A DNA stretch of 64,000 bases from a virus. The notes below the pieces were generated by a model. That model was not told the origin of the DNA and made no database searches. It was given only the letters and a program-made list of their open reading frames with translations. The position numbers and the translations under genes were made by a program. Location of the stretch: the IMG/VR virus record IMGVR_UViG_3300027749_000089, positions 1 through 64,000 of that record, one strand, 5' to 3'. Positions 10,294 through 39,128 of this stretch are shown here, one piece after another; within the stretch, counting starts at the first letter, position 1; each line of letters opens with the position of its first letter.

Positions 10294-10447
10294 CCCAATA
10301 GAGCTTTATAAAGGCCATTTAACTATACTAGTAATAGAAAAGAAACAATCTATTAAATTATTAGAACTAGAGCTAGATAATGCAAGAAGACAGTTTCGTA
10401 ATTTAATTAGAATTCAAGAGGAAATCGAAAATGAAAATAAAACTTAA
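10286..10447 (+). CDS. Small coiled-coil-like protein
   Basis: Protein of 53 residues that is almost entirely predicted helix, with leucine and isoleucine spacing suggesting a coiled coil (IKLLELELDNARRQFRNLIRIQEEIENE). It overlaps the membrane-protein gene upstream and the repeat-protein gene downstream by 17 bases. Unknown function; it may partner the preceding membrane peptide. Confidence 0.6.
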   Translation: MISPIELYKGHLTILVIEKKQSIKLLELELDNARRQFRNLIRIQEEIENENKT

Positions 10448-11303
10448 CAAGAAGTATAGAACACGTGGTGGTAAAGTAGTAAAAGTGGATAAGATGGTAA
10501 AAAGTGAAGTATATCCATTTTGTACAGATGCCGGCTACTCAGTTACAGCGGAGGGCAAGAGATTTGGTTTTATGGAATCTGAGTTTGATTTGGTGGAACG
10601 CATATATAAGTTTGAGTTTAAAGCTGGTCGTCAATACTTTACACACGAAGGAAATCCTGTAACATTAACAGATATAGAGCATTATGGTAGATATGTATTT
10701 AGTGGTGATAATGGTTATGACTACACAATAGATGGTAAAATGTATATTGATACAAAGTCTGAGTGCGATTTGCTGAGACCTCCTAAAATTAAAGTAGGGC
10801 GTACGTATATAACACGTAATGGTCAAATAGCTAATATAACAAAAGCAACCAGTGATATAGGCTTTTATAGATATGAGTACCGTACGCCTAATGGTTGTAA
10901 GTTTGGTGTAAGTAAATATGGTGAAATATTTGAAAATGAACAGACTGATTATGACATAGTTGATGTATATAAGCTAGAGGACAAAAAACTTTATGTTGAT
11001 GACAAAGATCATGTATATAGAGCTGAATTAGGGGTTGTAACTAAGTTGACAGGACTTCTCAGAGGCCAACAATTTACTGTTTCAGATATGAATCTTGTAA
11101 AAGAATTCAATGGACTTTGCCTGGAAGTTGGTGGCATTTATGTAAATGAACGTAATGACAAATATGAGATAATACACATTAGGAATGATGAACATGTTGT
11201 CGCAATGGACGTAAATGATGATTCCTTACGTACATATACACGTGGGGGTTATTACAATGACTGTGGCGTTTACAGTAATGAAGACTTAATAATGAGGGTT
11301 TAA
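10431..11303 (+). CDS. KxYxTR-domain protein with four repeats
   Basis: Protein of 290 residues built from copies of a ~57-residue beta-rich domain: about 1-56 (KIKLNKKYRTRGGKVVKV), 59-114 (FEFKAGRQYFTHEGNPVTL), 117-173 (KIKVGRTYITRNGQIANI) and a divergent copy near 232-290. Each starts with a charged strand, a K/R-x-Y-x-T-R turn and G-x-x-V, and ends in an acidic DLV-type strand. Single and double copies of the same domain occur in neighbouring genes at 11814, 12266, 15343, 15628 and 16172. Such small proteins recur in many phage genomes as hypotheticals; the fold looks like a small barrel and no activity is known to me. Confidence 0.8.
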   Translation: MKIKLNKKYRTRGGKVVKVDKMVKSEVYPFCTDAGYSVTAEGKRFGFMESEFDLVERIYKFEFKAGRQYFTHEGNPVTLTDIEHYGRYVFSGDNGYDYTIDGKMYIDTKSECDLLRPPKIKVGRTYITRNGQIANITKATSDIGFYRYEYRTPNGCKFGVSKYGEIFENEQTDYDIVDVYKLEDKKLYVDDKDHVYRAELGVVTKLTGLLRGQQFTVSDMNLVKEFNGLCLEVGGIYVNERNDKYEIIHIRNDEHVVAMDVNDDSLRTYTRGGYYNDCGVYSNEDLIMRV

Positions 11304-11813: not shown

Positions 11814-12023
11814 ATGAAAGTCGAAATTCAAAAAAAGTACAAAACGCGATGTGGCTTCAAAACTGAAGTACATCAAATCATCACATCAGTTAAGACCGAT
11901 TATCCAGTGTTAGGGCGTTATTATGACACCGATTATGCAGAATGGATTGATGAAAGATGGATGTTAGATGGGCGATGCGATGAAAGTATTGTAGATAATG
12001 ATTTAGATTTAGTTGCGCAATAA
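11814..12023 (+). CDS. Single-copy KxYxTR-domain protein
   Basis: Protein of 69 residues consisting of one copy of the domain seen four times at 10431: KKYKTRCGFKTEV, then DYPVLGRYY, a tryptophan strand ending in W-M-L-D-G-R, and DLDLVAQ at the C-terminus. It starts three bases after the preceding stop with a TAGG-type binding site. This copy is the cleanest view of the domain boundaries. Function unknown. Confidence 0.75.
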   Translation: MKVEIQKKYKTRCGFKTEVHQIITSVKTDYPVLGRYYDTDYAEWIDERWMLDGRCDESIVDNDLDLVAQ

Positions 12024-12035
12024 GGGATATCTTAT

Positions 12036-12269
12036 ATGAAATCGTTAACAAACCAAGAGGTTAAGAACATGTTACACAAATTTGATTTAATATCTGCTAT
12101 TATTGGAATGATGATAGCAATAGCTGTATCGGTAGTGGTAGTTGATATGAAGTACGAAGACTATCGTCAAGTCCACCAAACTAATATTGGTGGTGTTGTA
12201 ATTGAAGGCAAGCACATTTATGAGCTTGTTGAATTAAGTGATCCAAGCCAAGGGGTAGTAAGAAAATGA
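12036..12269 (+). CDS. Single-span membrane protein
   Basis: Protein of 77 residues with a helix of polar and basic residues (1-18), one transmembrane segment (about 19-37, ISAIIGMMIAIAVSVVVV) and an outer or inner 40-residue tail with two short strands (GGVVIEGKHIYELVEL). Overlaps the next gene by four bases. Unknown function. Confidence 0.7.
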   Translation: MKSLTNQEVKNMLHKFDLISAIIGMMIAIAVSVVVVDMKYEDYRQVHQTNIGGVVIEGKHIYELVELSDPSQGVVRK

Positions 12270-12610
12270 TAAATATCAATAAGCAATATAAAACCTGTTG
12301 TGGATTCCCTGTCGTGCTATTAGCAATGGTAGACAAGCAGTATACGGTAAGTCCGTATACTGTAATTGGTCTCTACAAGGATGAAGATAGAGGTTGGGAG
12401 CTTGGGACGTGGTCTGATAAAGGATATTTCAATATTGATGATGCAGATATTGGCAGCCCGCTGAATTTGGTTGAAATCAGCGATGAATCGCCTGTCGTGC
12501 CAGCAGGCGTGCAGGTGCCCAAATTTGGGCCAGAAACTGGGGCAGAGCTGGCAACCGCGTCTGAGGCATGCCTGCAGGGATGGGCCAGATTTATCGTGCC
12601 ACCTGCGTAG
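12266..12610 (+). CDS. KxYxTR-domain protein with a compositionally foreign C-terminus
   Basis: Protein of 114 residues. Residues 1-71 are one copy of the domain (NKQYKTCCGFPVVLL, YTVIGLYKDED, GTWSDKGYF, LNLVEIS). The last ~43 residues (from about SDESPVVPAG to IVPPA) have no counterpart in the paralogues and are encoded by a GC-rich, palindrome-rich stretch unlike any other part of the window. In the paralogues the protein ends right after the DLV strand, so the tail probably comes from an insertion that displaced the original stop codon. Confidence 0.7.
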   Translation: MININKQYKTCCGFPVVLLAMVDKQYTVSPYTVIGLYKDEDRGWELGTWSDKGYFNIDDADIGSPLNLVEISDESPVVPAGVQVPKFGPETGAELATASEACLQGWARFIVPPA

Positions 12611-12660
12611 CAAAAGCAGGCCATTAACGGGTTCGGGTTGTAATGCGAGTGTGCCAACCC
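12470..12660 (+). other. GC-rich, palindrome-rich island; possible structured RNA or insertion
   Basis: About 190 bases that are visibly richer in G and C (more than half, against roughly a third around them). Dyads include GCCTG/CAGGC (12490-12508), the perfect 14-bp palindrome GCCCAAATTTGGGC (12517-12530), GGCATGCC (12565-12572), CCTGCAGG (12571-12578), CCTGC/GCAGG (12602-12620, spanning the stop codon) and GGGTTG/CAACCC (12635-12660), which runs into the first 19-bp repeat. It covers the foreign tail of the upstream gene and the first part of the intergenic region. Confidence 0.6.
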
Positions 12661-12675
12661 CGTTAAATTAACCCT
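12657..12675 (+). repeat. 19-bp intergenic repeat, copy 1
   Basis: ACCCCGTTAAATTAACCCT, identical to four other copies. It contains the dyad GTTA-AAT-TAAC. Here it stands alone, 123 bases before the gene at 12798. Confidence 0.95.
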
Positions 12676-12695
12676 AATTTCAAAAAATAAAAAAG

Positions 12696-12724
12696 TTGAA
12701 GTTAGAAATCCCATCTCGTATTAT
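12696..12724 (+). promoter_or_regulatory. Candidate sigma-70-type promoter
   Basis: TTGAAG (12696) and TATTAT (12719) separated by exactly 17 bases, 73 bases before the start codon at 12798. Four of six and five of six matches to consensus. AT-rich DNA yields such matches by chance, but position and spacing fit a promoter for the single gene that follows. Confidence 0.5.
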
Positions 12725-12797
12725 TAATGGCAAAAGCGCACCATAATGGAACCGCACGATACATACTTTATATTAATTTATTATTAAGGAATTTATC

Positions 12798-13412
12798 ATG
12801 TCAGTTCAAATCCAACAAGCATTCGTAGTAAACGGTCAAACATTTGCAACTAAAGCAGAAGCATTAAACTTTGTTAGACGTCCATTGATTTTAGCAGCTA
12901 TGTTAACAGCTGTAAGTAATCAAACAGACGTTGCAGAATGGTTAGTTGATAACCAAGACACAGTTGAATCTGCTTTCGAAAGTGGTACTATTCGTCGTGT
13001 GACTAAATCTGATTATAACAAATTGGAAAAAGCACTTGCAGAAATCACTTCAGGTTTCTTATTTGACAATGCAAAATCTGTCTTAGATTCGTTCAGATGG
13101 CCTGCTGTAAAACGTTTAACTGCTGAAGAAAAAGTAGAAGCCGCTAAAACAGAAATCTTACAAGCATCAGGTAATCCTGAACTTGCTGATTATGTTGTTA
13201 GTAACTCTACTGCTATCTTGGAAGCTTATAGCGCTGGTGTTGAAAAACGCGAAGTGTCACCTAAAGCTGCTGCTGGTTTAGCAGAATACCAAGCTAAGAA
13301 ACGTGCTGAAGAAGATGCAGAAGCTGAGTCTAAAGGCCCAGAAGCTGTAGCTGAATTGGCTGCAAAACGTGAAGCTAATCGTTTAAAACGTGAAGCAAAA
13401 GCTGGTAAGTAA
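12798..13412 (+). CDS. Abundant-type hypothetical protein in its own transcription unit
   Basis: Protein of 204 residues, helical, with a very charged Ala/Glu/Lys-rich C-terminus (about 150-204). No family recognised. It has its own upstream regulatory region (19-bp repeat, sigma-70-like promoter) and its own terminator right after the stop, and it uses CGT for Arg and GGT for Gly much as the capsid gene does, while neighbours favour AGA. These signs point to high expression of a protein needed in quantity, for example a DNA-binding or takeover protein. That role is inference; no DNA-binding motif is obvious. Confidence 0.8.
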   Translation: MSVQIQQAFVVNGQTFATKAEALNFVRRPLILAAMLTAVSNQTDVAEWLVDNQDTVESAFESGTIRRVTKSDYNKLEKALAEITSGFLFDNAKSVLDSFRWPAVKRLTAEEKVEAAKTEILQASGNPELADYVVSNSTAILEAYSAGVEKREVSPKAAAGLAEYQAKKRAEEDAEAESKGPEAVAELAAKREANRLKREAKAGK

Positions 13413-16804: not shown

Positions 16805-16823
16805 ACCCCGTTAAATTAACCCT
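16805..16823 (+). repeat. 19-bp intergenic repeat, copy 2
   Basis: ACCCCGTTAAATTAACCCT, followed by AAAGCCGCTCCCCCT; first of the pair in module A. Confidence 0.95.
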
Positions 16824-16960: not shown

Positions 16961-16979
16961 ACCCCGTTAAATTAACCCT
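16961..16979 (+). repeat. 19-bp intergenic repeat, copy 3
   Basis: ACCCCGTTAAATTAACCCT, second of the pair in module A, 88 bases before the start codon at 17068. Confidence 0.95.
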
Positions 16980-34016: not shown

Positions 34017-37000
34017 ATGATTATTAATAGTAATACACAAATTTATGACAAAACGCTAGATCGCGCAGCGATGATCCGTCTATATGAGAGAAGAGTCTCT
34101 GGTAAAGTTGATTTAGTAATTGATGGTCATGTTGTTAGACTAGATAAATTAATTAAAGATGCAGAATTATCAGGACGAGGTTTCGAAAAATTTAGAGAAG
34201 CTATTGACCAAGAATTAAGAAAGACATATAAATCAATTAATAATTCTGTTCAAAAAGATCTATCATCTCTTGTATCTGATCAACTCTCATATGCTTATCA
34301 AAAAGTAGAAGTGGCAATGGGTAAAATATGGCGTACTGAAAGACCTAAGAATAGAATCTCTGAAGAAATTGTACTTAAAAACCCATTAAGTGAAAACGGT
34401 ACAATGGAGCAGGGATGGTCAGGTATTGCCAAGAATGAAAAAATTAGATTAGAAGCAGTTATACGCAAAGGTATAGCTGACGGAAAAAGCGTAGATGAAA
34501 TAGCTCTACAAATACGTTCAGGAAACGTACATAATATAACTCGCATGCAGTCGAAAGGTCTGGTAATAACAGCCATTACAGCTGTATCCTCTCAGGCTGA
34601 TCATGCTATTTATAAAGCAAATGAAAAAGCGTTACAAGGATGGCAATATGTTGCTGTCCTTGACGCACGAACAACTCCGCTATGTGCTCATAGAGATGGT
34701 GAAATTTATCCGATAAGCGATACAATACATCTTCCACCGGCACACTGGCATTGCAGATCTACTACAGTTCCTGTATTTAAATCATGGAGCGATATAGCAG
34801 ATCTGGAAAGTGTAGCACAAGTAAGACGTAGGAATATTGAGAACTTAACTGATGCTCAAAAAGCTTTTTATGACGGTAACACACCTCTTAGAGAGTCATA
34901 CAACGATTGGCTAAAGCGGCAACCACAAGATGTACAATTAAGGCATCTTGGTGATTATAAAAAAGTTAACATGTTTCAATCAGGACAACTTACTGTTGAT
35001 CAATTTACTAACCCAGAAGGTAACACTATTGGAATTAAAGAATTGAGACGTATGACTGATCCTACATATACACTTCCTAATGATACACAGAAATTTGCTA
35101 ATGCAAAAGCTAAATTAGATGCGATGCAATTACCTATTATGACACCAGATGATTTAATAGGAGATCCTAAATTAATTCAAACATTAAAAGATTATTATTT
35201 ATTACAGGCAGGTGAATTAGATGGTACCTTATCTCTTACCAATTATCGAGGCGCACTTATCCATACAAAGAAAGCTGCCAAGACAAGAGTGCTTAACAGT
35301 CTTCCAACGGAGGACCAACTCATCTTTAACCCCGTTACCGGTAGGTACGAAGATACAAGATTATATCAACCTAATCCATCCGTACTCAATAATAACTTAA
35401 GACTTGCAAAACAAAGTGATGTTTTGAAACCAAAAGATAAAGAGTTTATTAATTCATTTAATACTGCGCTTAGTGAAAAGATGAGTGTTAATGAGCGTGC
35501 CGTTGTGGTAGATAACCTTCGTATTCTATTTACCAGATTTAGAAATAATGGTGAACAGTGGAATAACTTTAAAGCTGTGGTACAGGGTCAAATTAAATTT
35601 GATGTAATGAATGTTTCTGATGCTATTGAAACTCAGATACGTAGTGATATCAACGTATTGAAGAAACTCAAACAAGATAATTATATTGATCCAGTATTAG
35701 GTCCAACTCAATTACAAGACTTGCATGATAATTTCATTGATAATATTCGTGCTAAGAATAACTGGGAAGATACTATATCTCCTAAGATAGCTAGAGAGTT
35801 ACGTAATACATTTGATTACAAGATACCCTTAGTATTAAAAAGAATGCCTAATGGTAAAGAGCGTTTAACTGAATCTGCATTACAACAATTTTATCTAAAG
35901 TTTGCGCACAGATTAAGCATGGCAGATATGCCTGATAGAGATCAATTTGCTATTGCATTAGGAAGAGATTTATACAATCTTGCTAATATGAACGGCACTA
36001 GACGTAAATGGTACGAAACAGGTATGAAGCTTCTTGAAGCTAAAAATGTTAGTAACTTCTTTGAAGTTGAAACATATGGTGTTCAAAAGCGAAGAATGAA
36101 AAGTAGACTTAGTGGTTCCTTGTTTGGCCCTTATTATGACACTCTGTCATATAATATAAGAGTTGTAGACCCTCGAATACAAGAATATTCACAGCTCACA
36201 CGGAAAGTGGACGTTGGCCTACGTGTTGGCGTAACAACAGAAAAGAACAAACTGGTTTTTCGCGAGGGATATAAAACTTATTTTATTGACAGAGGTCTCC
36301 TAGGTTTAGAAGATACAAGAATACCTATTACGTCAACAAATAGTTTTTCAGATTTTCCTGAAGAACTTGTTGATAAAAATATGGCAGATGCGTTAAATTG
36401 GGCATCTAAGTCTAAGTATAAAATTGATAATGACTTTTACGACTTTACACAAAAATTATTATACTTTGAAGATGATCGAGGTAACGCTAAAAAGTATAAT
36501 GATCTAAATGAATACAAACACTATATTTCATCTCGTGGTGATGCATATGAACGATTTAAATCTATGGATTGGCTTAGAAATAATGATTACGCTTTCAGTA
36601 ATCATGCTTTTGTCGATCATCGGGCTAGGATCTATGATCGTGGCCTTATTAGTCCGCAATCGGGAGAATCATTTAGACCTTTCTTAAATACTGAAGTAGA
36701 AAAAGTTCTTGGCGAAGATGGATATAGAAACTTCAGAGATCAGATAGGTGCCTTTATGGGTGGTCTAAATGATGTATTTGAAGGTAGATATAATTCATTG
36801 TCATTTACTGGACGCCAAAAGATTGCTGATAAATTGTGGCCAGATATGGTAGACCTTGGTAATAAAATGTTAAGAGCCAAACCTGCAGATTTACGTGCTA
36901 TTCTGGAATCAGATACGGTGCAATTAATTGAAGGTGAGGAACTTGGTAAGTTCATGAGATTTGCCATGGAAGCTGCTAAGATAGATAATCATCTTAAAGC

Positions 37001-38654
37001 CGGTGGCTCTATGAATGCATACAAAACAGCCTTAGCCTTGGAACAAGATGCATCGTCTTCAGGTGCTCAGATTATTGCATTAACTACAAAGAATAAGCAA
37101 TTAGCTTCATTATCTAATGTTATACCAACAAATCAGAAACGCAGACTATATGATGAAATTGCTGCTGCAACATTTAATGATCCTCGGTTTAAGGTGCTTA
37201 ACGAAAGATTATGCCTCAATGAAAAAGATTTACGTAAAGCTGCAAAAGCTCAAAATATGGTTACGTTTTATGGTGCTGGTGAGAGAACGGGAATTTTAAA
37301 TGTAGAAGGAAAGTTAGCTAAAGTACTTGGGAAGGACTCTTCTACACTAGTAGTAAAAGCTAGTGATCGTGATAAAGTATTAAATGAAATTTCAGCTCGT
37401 GCGGCTAGATATGAAAAGTTTGATCCAGAGACAACTGCAGAGCTTAAACAGCTTAGAGAAAACGTTAAAGATATATTTAACAAAGGCTTAGATCCTGGTG
37501 ATGACATTATGGAACAGTTATATTTCCTGGATCCTGCTACTAAAGACTTAGTAGAAAAAATGACACACACCTATGATATGGTGGTTACACCTAAAGACTT
37601 CCAAGCTATTGCTAAATTAATGTCTGAACATTTAGGTGAGCAGGTTCCTATTCTTAAAGATTTTACTAAATTCTTTGGTAGACTAGCTGAAGATTATTTA
37701 ACTAATGCTAAGCCTTCACAAGCTGCATTAGATTGGAGATCTATAGGCGCTACTAGTATATTAGGTGCCCGTAAAAAAGGTTATGTATTACCTGATAGAG
37801 TTAGTGAAATATTAGGATTGAAGCCTGGAGAAGCTTTGTCTGAAAAGTTTTTAAAGAGATTTGATGGTTGGAAACCTGACGGAACCTTGGCTGATCTTAT
37901 TTATGGTGTAAAAGGCCCAAAAGATCGTAGAACTGGATTTAAAGTATTTAAAGTAGAGCCTATAGAAAAATTAAATATCTCTAAAGGTTTTGAAATATTT
38001 TATGCTAATAAGCTGCCCAAGTCTTGGACTAATGTCCCATGGGTTAATTTTGATGGAAAAGTTATTGAGCAAAACTTTACCCAGTCATTTGAAGAAAGAT
38101 TAGTCTATAAAGACAAAGATGGTAATTGGGTTAATAATTTGGTTCAGGTGCAGCAGAAAACAGAAGCCACTTGGTGGGAACAGGTAGTTAATGCAGACGG
38201 TAAAATAAATGACATTGCAGACGCAACTAAAGCACGAACAGCATATGCAGTTAACGGCAATCACTCAAATGATGCCACGTTGGTTAAGAATTTCCATATC
38301 TGGGGACGAGACAATAAGATTGCCACAAGCACCATTCACGATGCGTTTTTCGCCAATGCAGCCGATATGCTGGAGGCCCGGAAGGGTATAAGAAAACTAT
38401 ATGCTAACGTACTAGATAAGAACCCTGTCAAGGTTACTTTAGATGAAATGTTAGCTAGAGGTTTTCCAAAAGAATTATATGATAAATATTTAGAAGAAGC
38501 TATTGACAAAGGATTAATTCCAGTTGCTGGTAAATCAGTTGTCGGTGGTAAAACATTAACAGAAGCTGACATCTTAACAAAGAAAGATGTAATGAGCGAT
38601 ATCCCCGATCCTACTAAATTTGAGGATGATTGGGGTTTTTACGGCATAGGCTGA
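34017..38654 (+). CDS. MuF-type head protein fused to single-subunit RNA polymerase
   Basis: Protein of 1545 residues. Residues 1 to about 345 are a Mu gpF/SPP1 gp7-like minor head protein: VLDARTTPLC with C223, AHWHC with H243, H245 and C246, then DWLKRQPQDVQLRHLG and the closing FTNPEGNTIGIKELRR. The rest matches single-subunit RNA polymerases of the T7/N4-virion class: D867-H-R-A-R871-I-Y (T7 DWRGRVY), motif A EQD1011ASSSGAQ, motif B R1073-x3-K1077-x3-M1081-x3-Y1085-G1086, H1416-S-N-D, and motif C TIH1441-D1442-AFF. The ~1100-residue enzyme part is close to the size of N4 mini-vRNAP; an insertion of about 180 residues relative to T7 lies between motifs B and C. I infer head packaging through the MuF part and injection at infection. 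The start is clear (AAAGG upstream) and the frame is unbroken. Confidence 0.93.
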   Translation: MIINSNTQIYDKTLDRAAMIRLYERRVSGKVDLVIDGHVVRLDKLIKDAELSGRGFEKFREAIDQELRKTYKSINNSVQKDLSSLVSDQLSYAYQKVEVAMGKIWRTERPKNRISEEIVLKNPLSENGTMEQGWSGIAKNEKIRLEAVIRKGIADGKSVDEIALQIRSGNVHNITRMQSKGLVITAITAVSSQADHAIYKANEKALQGWQYVAVLDARTTPLCAHRDGEIYPISDTIHLPPAHWHCRSTTVPVFKSWSDIADLESVAQVRRRNIENLTDAQKAFYDGNTPLRESYNDWLKRQPQDVQLRHLGDYKKVNMFQSGQLTVDQFTNPEGNTIGIKELRRMTDPTYTLPNDTQKFANAKAKLDAMQLPIMTPDDLIGDPKLIQTLKDYYLLQAGELDGTLSLTNYRGALIHTKKAAKTRVLNSLPTEDQLIFNPVTGRYEDTRLYQPNPSVLNNNLRLAKQSDVLKPKDKEFINSFNTALSEKMSVNERAVVVDNLRILFTRFRNNGEQWNNFKAVVQGQIKFDVMNVSDAIETQIRSDINVLKKLKQDNYIDPVLGPTQLQDLHDNFIDNIRAKNNWEDTISPKIARELRNTFDYKIPLVLKRMPNGKERLTESALQQFYLKFAHRLSMADMPDRDQFAIALGRDLYNLANMNGTRRKWYETGMKLLEAKNVSNFFEVETYGVQKRRMKSRLSGSLFGPYYDTLSYNIRVVDPRIQEYSQLTRKVDVGLRVGVTTEKNKLVFREGYKTYFIDRGLLGLEDTRIPITSTNSFSDFPEELVDKNMADALNWASKSKYKIDNDFYDFTQKLLYFEDDRGNAKKYNDLNEYKHYISSRGDAYERFKSMDWLRNNDYAFSNHAFVDHRARIYDRGLISPQSGESFRPFLNTEVEKVLGEDGYRNFRDQIGAFMGGLNDVFEGRYNSLSFTGRQKIADKLWPDMVDLGNKMLRAKPADLRAILESDTVQLIEGEELGKFMRFAMEAAKIDNHLKAGGSMNAYKTALALEQDASSSGAQIIALTTKNKQLASLSNVIPTNQKRRLYDEIAAATFNDPRFKVLNERLCLNEKDLRKAAKAQNMVTFYGAGERTGILNVEGKLAKVLGKDSSTLVVKASDRDKVLNEISARAARYEKFDPETTAELKQLRENVKDIFNKGLDPGDDIMEQLYFLDPATKDLVEKMTHTYDMVVTPKDFQAIAKLMSEHLGEQVPILKDFTKFFGRLAEDYLTNAKPSQAALDWRSIGATSILGARKKGYVLPDRVSEILGLKPGEALSEKFLKRFDGWKPDGTLADLIYGVKGPKDRRTGFKVFKVEPIEKLNISKGFEIFYANKLPKSWTNVPWVNFDGKVIEQNFTQSFEERLVYKDKDGNWVNNLVQVQQKTEATWWEQVVNADGKINDIADATKARTAYAVNGNHSNDATLVKNFHIWGRDNKIATSTIHDAFFANAADMLEARKGIRKLYANVLDKNPVKVTLDEMLARGFPKELYDKYLEEAIDKGLIPVAGKSVVGGKTLTEADILTKKDVMSDIPDPTKFEDDWGFYGIG

Positions 38655-38792: not shown

Positions 38793-39010
38793 GATTTAGT
38801 CACGCATTAGATTTAATAATTGCAAACCACAAACTAGCACGTACAGGTTGGAACGGTAAAAACATGTATGTCAGTATTGTTAGAAATTTTGGTTCAGTTG
38901 AGCCATTTTTCATATTAACACAACCTACTAAGACGAACACATGGGTTCCTTCAATGTCTGATTTATTATCGGATGATTGGGTTATCTTTCCAGAGACCCC
39001 GTTAAATTAA
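38789..39010 (+). CDS. DUF2829 / Tad2-like protein, possible anti-Thoeris factor
   Basis: Protein of 73 residues matching the DUF2829 plan: F-S-H-A-L-D-L-I at 3-10, L-A-R-T-G20-W21-N22-G23-K24-N-M26, a beta-rich middle with EPFFIL, and VPSMSDLLSDDWVIF. Tad2, an anti-defence protein that binds the Thoeris signal molecule gcADPR, belongs to DUF2829, so sponge activity against nucleotide signals is possible; many DUF2829 members are untested. The last four residues (TPLN) and the stop codon are provided by copy 4 of the 19-bp repeat. Confidence 0.72.
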   Translation: MRFSHALDLIIANHKLARTGWNGKNMYVSIVRNFGSVEPFFILTQPTKTNTWVPSMSDLLSDDWVIFPETPLN

Positions 39011-39014
39011 CCCT
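38996..39014 (+). repeat. 19-bp intergenic repeat, copy 4
   Basis: ACCCCGTTAAATTAACCCT, first of the pair in module B. It overlaps the end of the Tad2-like gene and supplies its TAA stop. Confidence 0.95.
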
Positions 39015-39109: not shown

Positions 39110-39128
39110 ACCCCGTTAAATTAACCCT
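39110..39128 (+). repeat. 19-bp intergenic repeat, copy 5
   Basis: ACCCCGTTAAATTAACCCT, second of the pair in module B, 78 bases before the scaffold start codon. Confidence 0.95.

Follow-up and report, generated by a model that had tools for sequence, protein, structure and literature searches.

A GC-rich island upstream of one promoter-like motif copy appears to be an old element of an uncultured phage family

Introduction

Early promoters of the virion RNA polymerase of phage N4 are marked by a GC-rich heptamer centred at -11 and by inverted repeats that flank it (Lenneman and Rothman-Denes 2015, PMC4496689). We describe here a viral locus at which a GC-rich island is followed directly by a repeated 17-mer, in a 64,000-nucleotide stretch of DNA (positions 1 to 64,000 of IMG/VR record IMGVR_UViG_3300027749_000089; hereafter the window). 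Like N4, this phage encodes a virion-type single-subunit RNA polymerase together with a second phage polymerase, and it would have few early start sites, set in a special DNA context. Unlike in N4, the GC-rich part is ~150 nt long and lies outside the 17-mer, and there is no conserved small hairpin with a 3-nt loop. The window phage also differs from N4 in encoding a long tape-measure protein, which makes it a long-tailed phage, and in having its polymerase fused to a Mu-F head domain.

The 17-mer is in several respects similar to the promoters of T7 and T3. The motif is ~17-20 bp long and nearly invariant, it lies on the same strand as the genes, several copies are present per genome just upstream of gene starts, and a T7-like polymerase is encoded in the genome. 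The AATTAACCCT stretch of the motif is presumably also part of the T3 promoter, which we treat as a lead only. The T7/T3 start region, however, is absent from the motif, and we know of no T7 or T3 promoter that has a GC island. At the primary replication origin of T7, AT-rich DNA comes after a phage promoter, close to where one gene class gives way to another. With its putative promoter, the present locus is arranged in the same way; the T7 primary origin is not known to have a GC-rich block upstream.

The nearest annotated relative is EBPR siphovirus 1 (JF412302), whose gp9 is 41% identical to the product of gene 12798-13412 and which has the same head-protein/polymerase fusion. Its version of the motif, CCGTTGAATTAACCC, is located at the same place, upstream of gp9 and behind a GC-rich hairpin. 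It differs in having a weaker GC excess (+8 points over 150 nt), and the record, which is partial, leaves the island unannotated.

Results and Discussion

Extent and composition of the island

The first-pass annotation of the window had reported an abrupt rise in GC at 12470-12660, and this was confirmed by our analysis. Between 12450 and 12650 the GC content goes up from ~36-45% to 57-62%, in a genome of 36% GC, and the 150 nt at 12491-12640 are the most GC-rich of the entire 64 kb (0.607, with 0.547 for the runner-up and a mean of 0.360, sd 0.050). As had been described, the island takes in the last portion of ORF 12266-12610 and some of the gap that follows, and it ends exactly on the 17-mer CCCCGTTAAATTAACCC. 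The site lies where the replication-gene operon meets the operon of gene 12798-13412. GC skew is ~0 in the islands and +0.09 to +0.13 in the flanks. The features of the locus are collected in Table 1.

Table 1. Coordinates of the features discussed in the text
Feature	Coordinates	Strand	Remarks
Small ORF, 114 aa	12266..12610	+	last ~45 codons (12473-12610) extend into the island
GC-rich island 1, ~150-nt conserved element	12511..12657	+	left edge approximate; top GC and conservation in relatives
Hairpin, TTAACGGG (12624-12631) with CCCGTTAA (12659-12666)	12624..12666	+	inverted half motif copy pairing with the motif
"Repeat copy 1" of the 17-mer, CCCCGTTAAATTAACCC, a putative promoter for a phage RNA polymerase	12658..12674	+	exact copy
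Gene of 204-aa protein downstream of island and motif	12798..13412	+	comparison anchor; homologue gp9 in EBPR siphovirus 1
17-mer copy without island	16806..16822	+	upstream GC 0.33
17-mer copy without island	16962..16978	+	upstream GC 0.34
1545-aa fusion, Mu-F-type head morphogenesis domain and single-subunit RNA polymerase	34017..38654	+	candidate reader of the motif
17-mer copy lacking an island, behind the gene of the RNA-polymerase fusion	38997..39013	+	upstream GC 0.36
17-mer copy without island, before scaffold and capsid genes	39111..39127	+	upstream GC 0.28

Conservation of the island in relatives

Ten close relatives were obtained by a protein search with the product of gene 12798-13412, in which they are 97-100% identical. 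All of them have the island and the 17-mer, and the block from GTGCCCAAATTTGGGC to the 17-mer is conserved. Across relatives L008-L016, similarity in the island stretch exceeds that in much of the DNA around it.

With a profile search, the comparison was extended to 47 loci. More distant relatives, again metagenomic contigs, were studied in three successive and overlapping sets, which are refinements of one another and not independent; several of the test sets share sequences. The first non-redundant set consisted of 24 loci, filtered on having the motif, whose gene products are mostly 36-50% identical to that of the window. A GC island was observed in 24/24 of these, with the 150 nt before the motif exceeding the phage's own DNA by +16 to +22 points on average. 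The islands lie upstream of the same gene and have sharp edges at ~-150 and 0, at loci whose GC content ranges from 33 to 63%. In the enlarged set, again filtered on the motif, all 31 sites upstream of a 12798-type gene were GC-enriched (mean +16.8 points, lowest +7.9), while upstream of the 80 other non-redundant motif copies the excess was only +0.9 points on average.

The widest set was anchored on the protein and comprised 52 non-redundant loci, of which 43 have the motif no more than 300 nt away (as an exact match in 24, with a single mismatch in 14 and with two in 5). A GC excess of more than 5 points was found at 39 of the 43 and of more than 10 points at 36, and at 28 no other 150-nt window of the locus was as GC-rich. 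The four motif loci without a clear island are L206, L222, L241 and L243, the last of which has GC-rich DNA further upstream. Some loci that lack the motif have the variant GTTAAATTAATGA instead, and several of those retain the GC island.

We are highly confident that a conserved non-coding element is present at the site of gene 12798. As judged by these comparisons, the GC patch is an old element of an uncultured phage family, located ahead of one promoter-like copy of the motif. A sharply bounded island that stays beside one putative promoter despite sequence turnover, in phages of 33-63% GC, points to a strong constraint.

The contrast in GC with the rest of the genome fits the earlier suggestion of a recent insertion, perhaps of host-derived DNA or of a small mobile repeat. 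We reject this reading, to which we attach almost no probability, because the relatives carry the island at the same place: all of the close ones do, as do nearly all of the distant ones, which are mostly 36-50% identical in the adjacent protein. The contrast is similar across loci of 33 to 63% GC. Relatives with an empty site, a comparison that had been proposed along with the insertion, were sought among both close and distant relatives and none was found. A DNA search of sequenced phages yielded no close match to the island and one 59-bp match elsewhere, and a scan of the genome collection with the adjacent protein matched one contig.

The island and the upstream reading frame

Since ORF 12266-12610 reads into the island, its product has an odd, GC-rich tail. 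If the island were an ordinary coding C-terminal extension of this ORF, one would expect what is in fact seen in the window clade, namely that the reading frame of the tail is kept, with the upstream ORF extending to ~-50; the tail was also found once in each of eight other records searched. In most relatives, however, the island is located between genes. The upstream ORF there stops near -150 to -190 or farther away and often encodes a DHH-type protein (judged by eye, from a GGGGH motif). Upstream genes that are unrelated to one another finish inside this same island or ahead of it, and a homologous second island, described below, sits elsewhere in the genome. The variable columns of the tail are moreover distributed over the three codon positions as 5/7/8, as compared with 4/3/29 in gene 12798, which shows no strong third-position bias in the tail. 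The first-pass annotation had named relatives with the same C-terminal protein but different codons as a sign of ordinary coding constraint that would speak against its reading; this pattern was not encountered, and the differences that we observed fall on all three codon positions. It is therefore very improbable that the island is a coding extension.

It had also been noticed that the paralogues of the 12266 protein stop where the island begins. This holds for the 69-aa neighbour, ORF 11814-12023, which ends approximately where the 12266 tail starts. ORFs 12266-12610, 11814-12023 and 10431-11303 make up a series that encodes small proteins, which appear to be paralogues and begin in a KxYKTxxG-like manner. 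Pfam gave no match above the cut-off for any of the three, and the two larger ones, which were also compared with PHROG, fell into none of its families.

Palindromes and RNA folding

The 14-bp palindrome to which the first-pass annotation drew attention is present at 12517-12530, but it is not unusual: perfect palindromes of 14 bp or more number 5 in the window, where ~4 are expected by chance (64000/4^7), and this one is broken already in relative L016. Six dyads had likewise been listed as a special feature; the island has one six-bp dyad (loop 3-12) against 0.63 in shuffles, which is at chance level.

A structured non-coding RNA had been among the earlier suggestions, with folding against shuffled controls as the proposed check. 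For 12470-12690 this gave only z = -1.94, with 9/200 shuffles as low. When the islands of relatives were folded and compared with shuffles, the sense strand gave a z of -1.10 +/- 0.21 and the other strand -0.27 +/- 0.17 (n=42); the corresponding values in the first island set were -1.22 and -0.33, and control regions gave -0.56 and -0.37. The folding excess of the islands is thus modest and limited to the gene-sense strand.

Within the window clade, the 8-bp hairpin formed by TTAACGGG and CCCGTTAA is paired in 14/14 sequences. The changes in it are few and all compatible with pairing; they are A-U to G-U, together with one G-C to A-U in a short inner helix, and amount to weak covariation. The hairpin was not found family-wide, and RNAalifold on divergent island sets detected no family-wide secondary structure. 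Covariance models of Rfam 15 left the island unmatched in the window (E up to 5) and in 19 relatives (E up to 1). Degenerate sequence blocks are common to the islands at a level well above shuffles, with scores that are inflated by the kinship by descent of some islands. The island may thus be a structured RNA, being mostly non-coding in relatives, conserved at the level of nucleotides and not of codons, and folding in excess on the sense strand; a common fold and strong covariation did not emerge.

Several structural candidates were examined and rejected. A common long outer RNA helix, spotted by eye in several folds, had a mean z of 0.03 over 42 islands and is at the level of shuffles. An AT-rich stem-loop at the left edge of the island gave p = 0.053 in an arm-swap test and was not accepted. 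An intrinsic terminator does not fit, since no T-run follows the island, in the window or in the relatives listed, and CCCCGTTAAATTAACCC is found there instead. An integron attC site, suggested by a GTTAAAT core, has a misfit in the partner box as judged by eye.

The 17-mer and the phage RNA polymerases

Exact copies of the 17-mer number 5 in the window and 7 in the contig, on the same strand; those in the window are all on the + strand, and 0.11 copies would be expected there by shuffling. The consensus of the motif is A[AC]CCCGTTAAATTAACCCT, and in 95/104 copies an ORF starts no more than 400 nt downstream on the same strand. As many of the 104 copies were fetched by motif search, this consensus is partly circular; the protein-anchored counts agree with it. 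Some traits of T7-type promoters are thus found in the 17-mer, which is short, nearly invariant and present in several coding-strand copies upstream of gene starts, and a single-subunit RNA polymerase is encoded in the same genomes.

A candidate reader of the motif is the product of ORF 34017-38654, which matches phrog_241 (2e-62), phrog_414 (2e-22), PF04233 and PF00940, and in which the catalytic-motif-like stretches DASSSG, KAQNMVTFYG and HDAFF can be read. A relative of this fusion polymerase was present in 21/21 phages tested; others are encoded by EBPR siphovirus 1, with 58% identity, and by the roseophages DSS3_VP1 and DSS3_PM1, with 28%. A second, free T7-like RNA polymerase is encoded at 68275-70494 of the contig (G000) and was present in 10/10 genomes tested, the window phage included. 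Because both polymerases accompany it in this way, the 17-mer is probably a phage promoter. The analysis flags an uncultured siphovirus family that combines a single-subunit RNA polymerase fused to a Mu-F head protein with a second, T7-like polymerase. This would amount to a transcription plan like that of N4 in phages that are not N4-like, and its candidate promoter is open to direct test. The product of gene 12798-13412 itself has no PHROG or Pfam match.

Two side observations concern the fusion polymerase gene. In EBPR siphovirus 1 it is interrupted by an HNH gene (gp47-gp49), and in G009, G017 and G027 the polymerase frames are longer (1778-1879 aa) and show gaps in the match. These long gapped frames are perhaps inteins.

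At 12698-12726, behind the motif, TTGAAG and TATTAT with a spacer of 17 nt were considered as a host sigma-70 promoter; this was rejected, as most relatives do not retain the -35 element.

A second island, and possible roles at the level of DNA

In the whole 74.8-kb contig, the 150 nt with the highest GC are at 65831, outside the window, and they too end on a 17-mer, at 65.98 kb. No other site of the contig is as GC-rich as this island 2 and island 1, which are homologous to each other (local score 44 vs 22.5 +/- 3.5 in shuffles). Island 2 lies ahead of a set of small genes and of the gene for the free T7-like polymerase, and has a counterpart in G003, G009 and G017. Elsewhere among the sampled genomes the island is usually confined to the gene-12798 site, and all but one or two motif copies per genome are bare.

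The island may also be considered as a DNA element of an early promoter, in which island and motif would together form a special promoter class for the head-fused polymerase, which is probably injected with the DNA, and bare copies would serve late genes. Such promoters would resemble the structured early promoters of phage N4 without being of that type. The island directly adjoins the motif, the fusion polymerase and the second polymerase were found in every genome tested for them, island 2 stands ahead of the gene set that includes the second polymerase, and bare copies are located before the scaffold and capsid genes; all of this is consistent with such a role. Against it, only the gene-12798 site has an island in most relatives, the strand asymmetry in folding is unexpected for a DNA element, and GTTGAATTAAC variants disrupt the palindrome inside the motif, GTTAAATTAAC. 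No conserved small hairpin of the N4 type was found in the island either, and a candidate for one, CCAG-AAA-CTGG (4-bp stem, 3-nt loop), is not preserved in L008, L013 and L016. We consider this role unlikely.

The layout of the locus also brings to mind the mark of a replication origin or packaging site, somewhat like the T7 primary origin. There is one universal site per genome, with a GC-rich block, then a promoter and then AT-rich DNA, and the replication genes are T7-like. In addition, of 75 contigs (loci L198-L272), 30 have an end in the 3 kb downstream of the 12798-type gene, and the 4 kb upstream of it contain none. This cluster of contig ends may reflect a terminus, hypervariable sequence or a trap for the assembler. 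The ends are, however, scattered over 0-4 kb downstream and none is at the island. No switch in GC skew occurs at the site, the window clade has two islands, and the related phage DSS3_VP1 is without a comparable GC peak, its ends included. An origin or packaging mark hence appears distinctly improbable.

A sense-strand RNA element as the favoured reading

Tentatively, we favour the reading that the island is a sense-strand RNA element, read in the direction of the genes, and put its chances at somewhat below even. It is favoured because the island has the same place and size in relatives, is specific to its site and is mostly intergenic; because it has no strong third-position bias, folds in excess on the sense strand and has a GC skew of ~0 unlike its flanks; and because islands share sequence blocks and islands 1 and 2 are homologous. 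The RNA would form a structured 3' terminus on the transcript from upstream, or be a short non-coding RNA by itself, and it would separate the upstream transcript from the promoter behind it. Transcription of the island, and an insulating or RNA role for it, are what we infer from these features. We count against an RNA element that there is no family-wide fold, that covariation in the window clade is weak, that no Rfam match or T-run was found, and that 4/43 loci have no clear island.

It is possible, although we think it rather doubtful, that an undescribed non-coding element, found at one or two sites per genome in this family of long-tailed phages with a head-fused RNA polymerase, and a new phage promoter together constitute the first transcription start after injection. 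If true, this would represent either an early non-coding RNA not described before or a novel means of marking early promoters for an injected polymerase.

Variant and accessory elements near the motif

Some loci show further elements at or near the motif. In L244, L245, L258 and L260 the variant GTTAAATTAATGATA is present in place of ...TTAACCC, as if the promoter specificity of this subclade had changed. At several sites, namely the copies at 16806, 38997 and contig position 65977 and also in relatives, the motif is followed ~20-28 nt downstream by a degenerate version of itself or by a run of C, which suggests tandem sites. Between motif and gene start there is another conserved element, GGTATCTTATATG, in many cases with a short hairpin behind it. 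It was observed in relatives such as L067, L069, L079 and L285, and at 66063 and 66601 of the contig, and may serve the other polymerase as promoter or leader.
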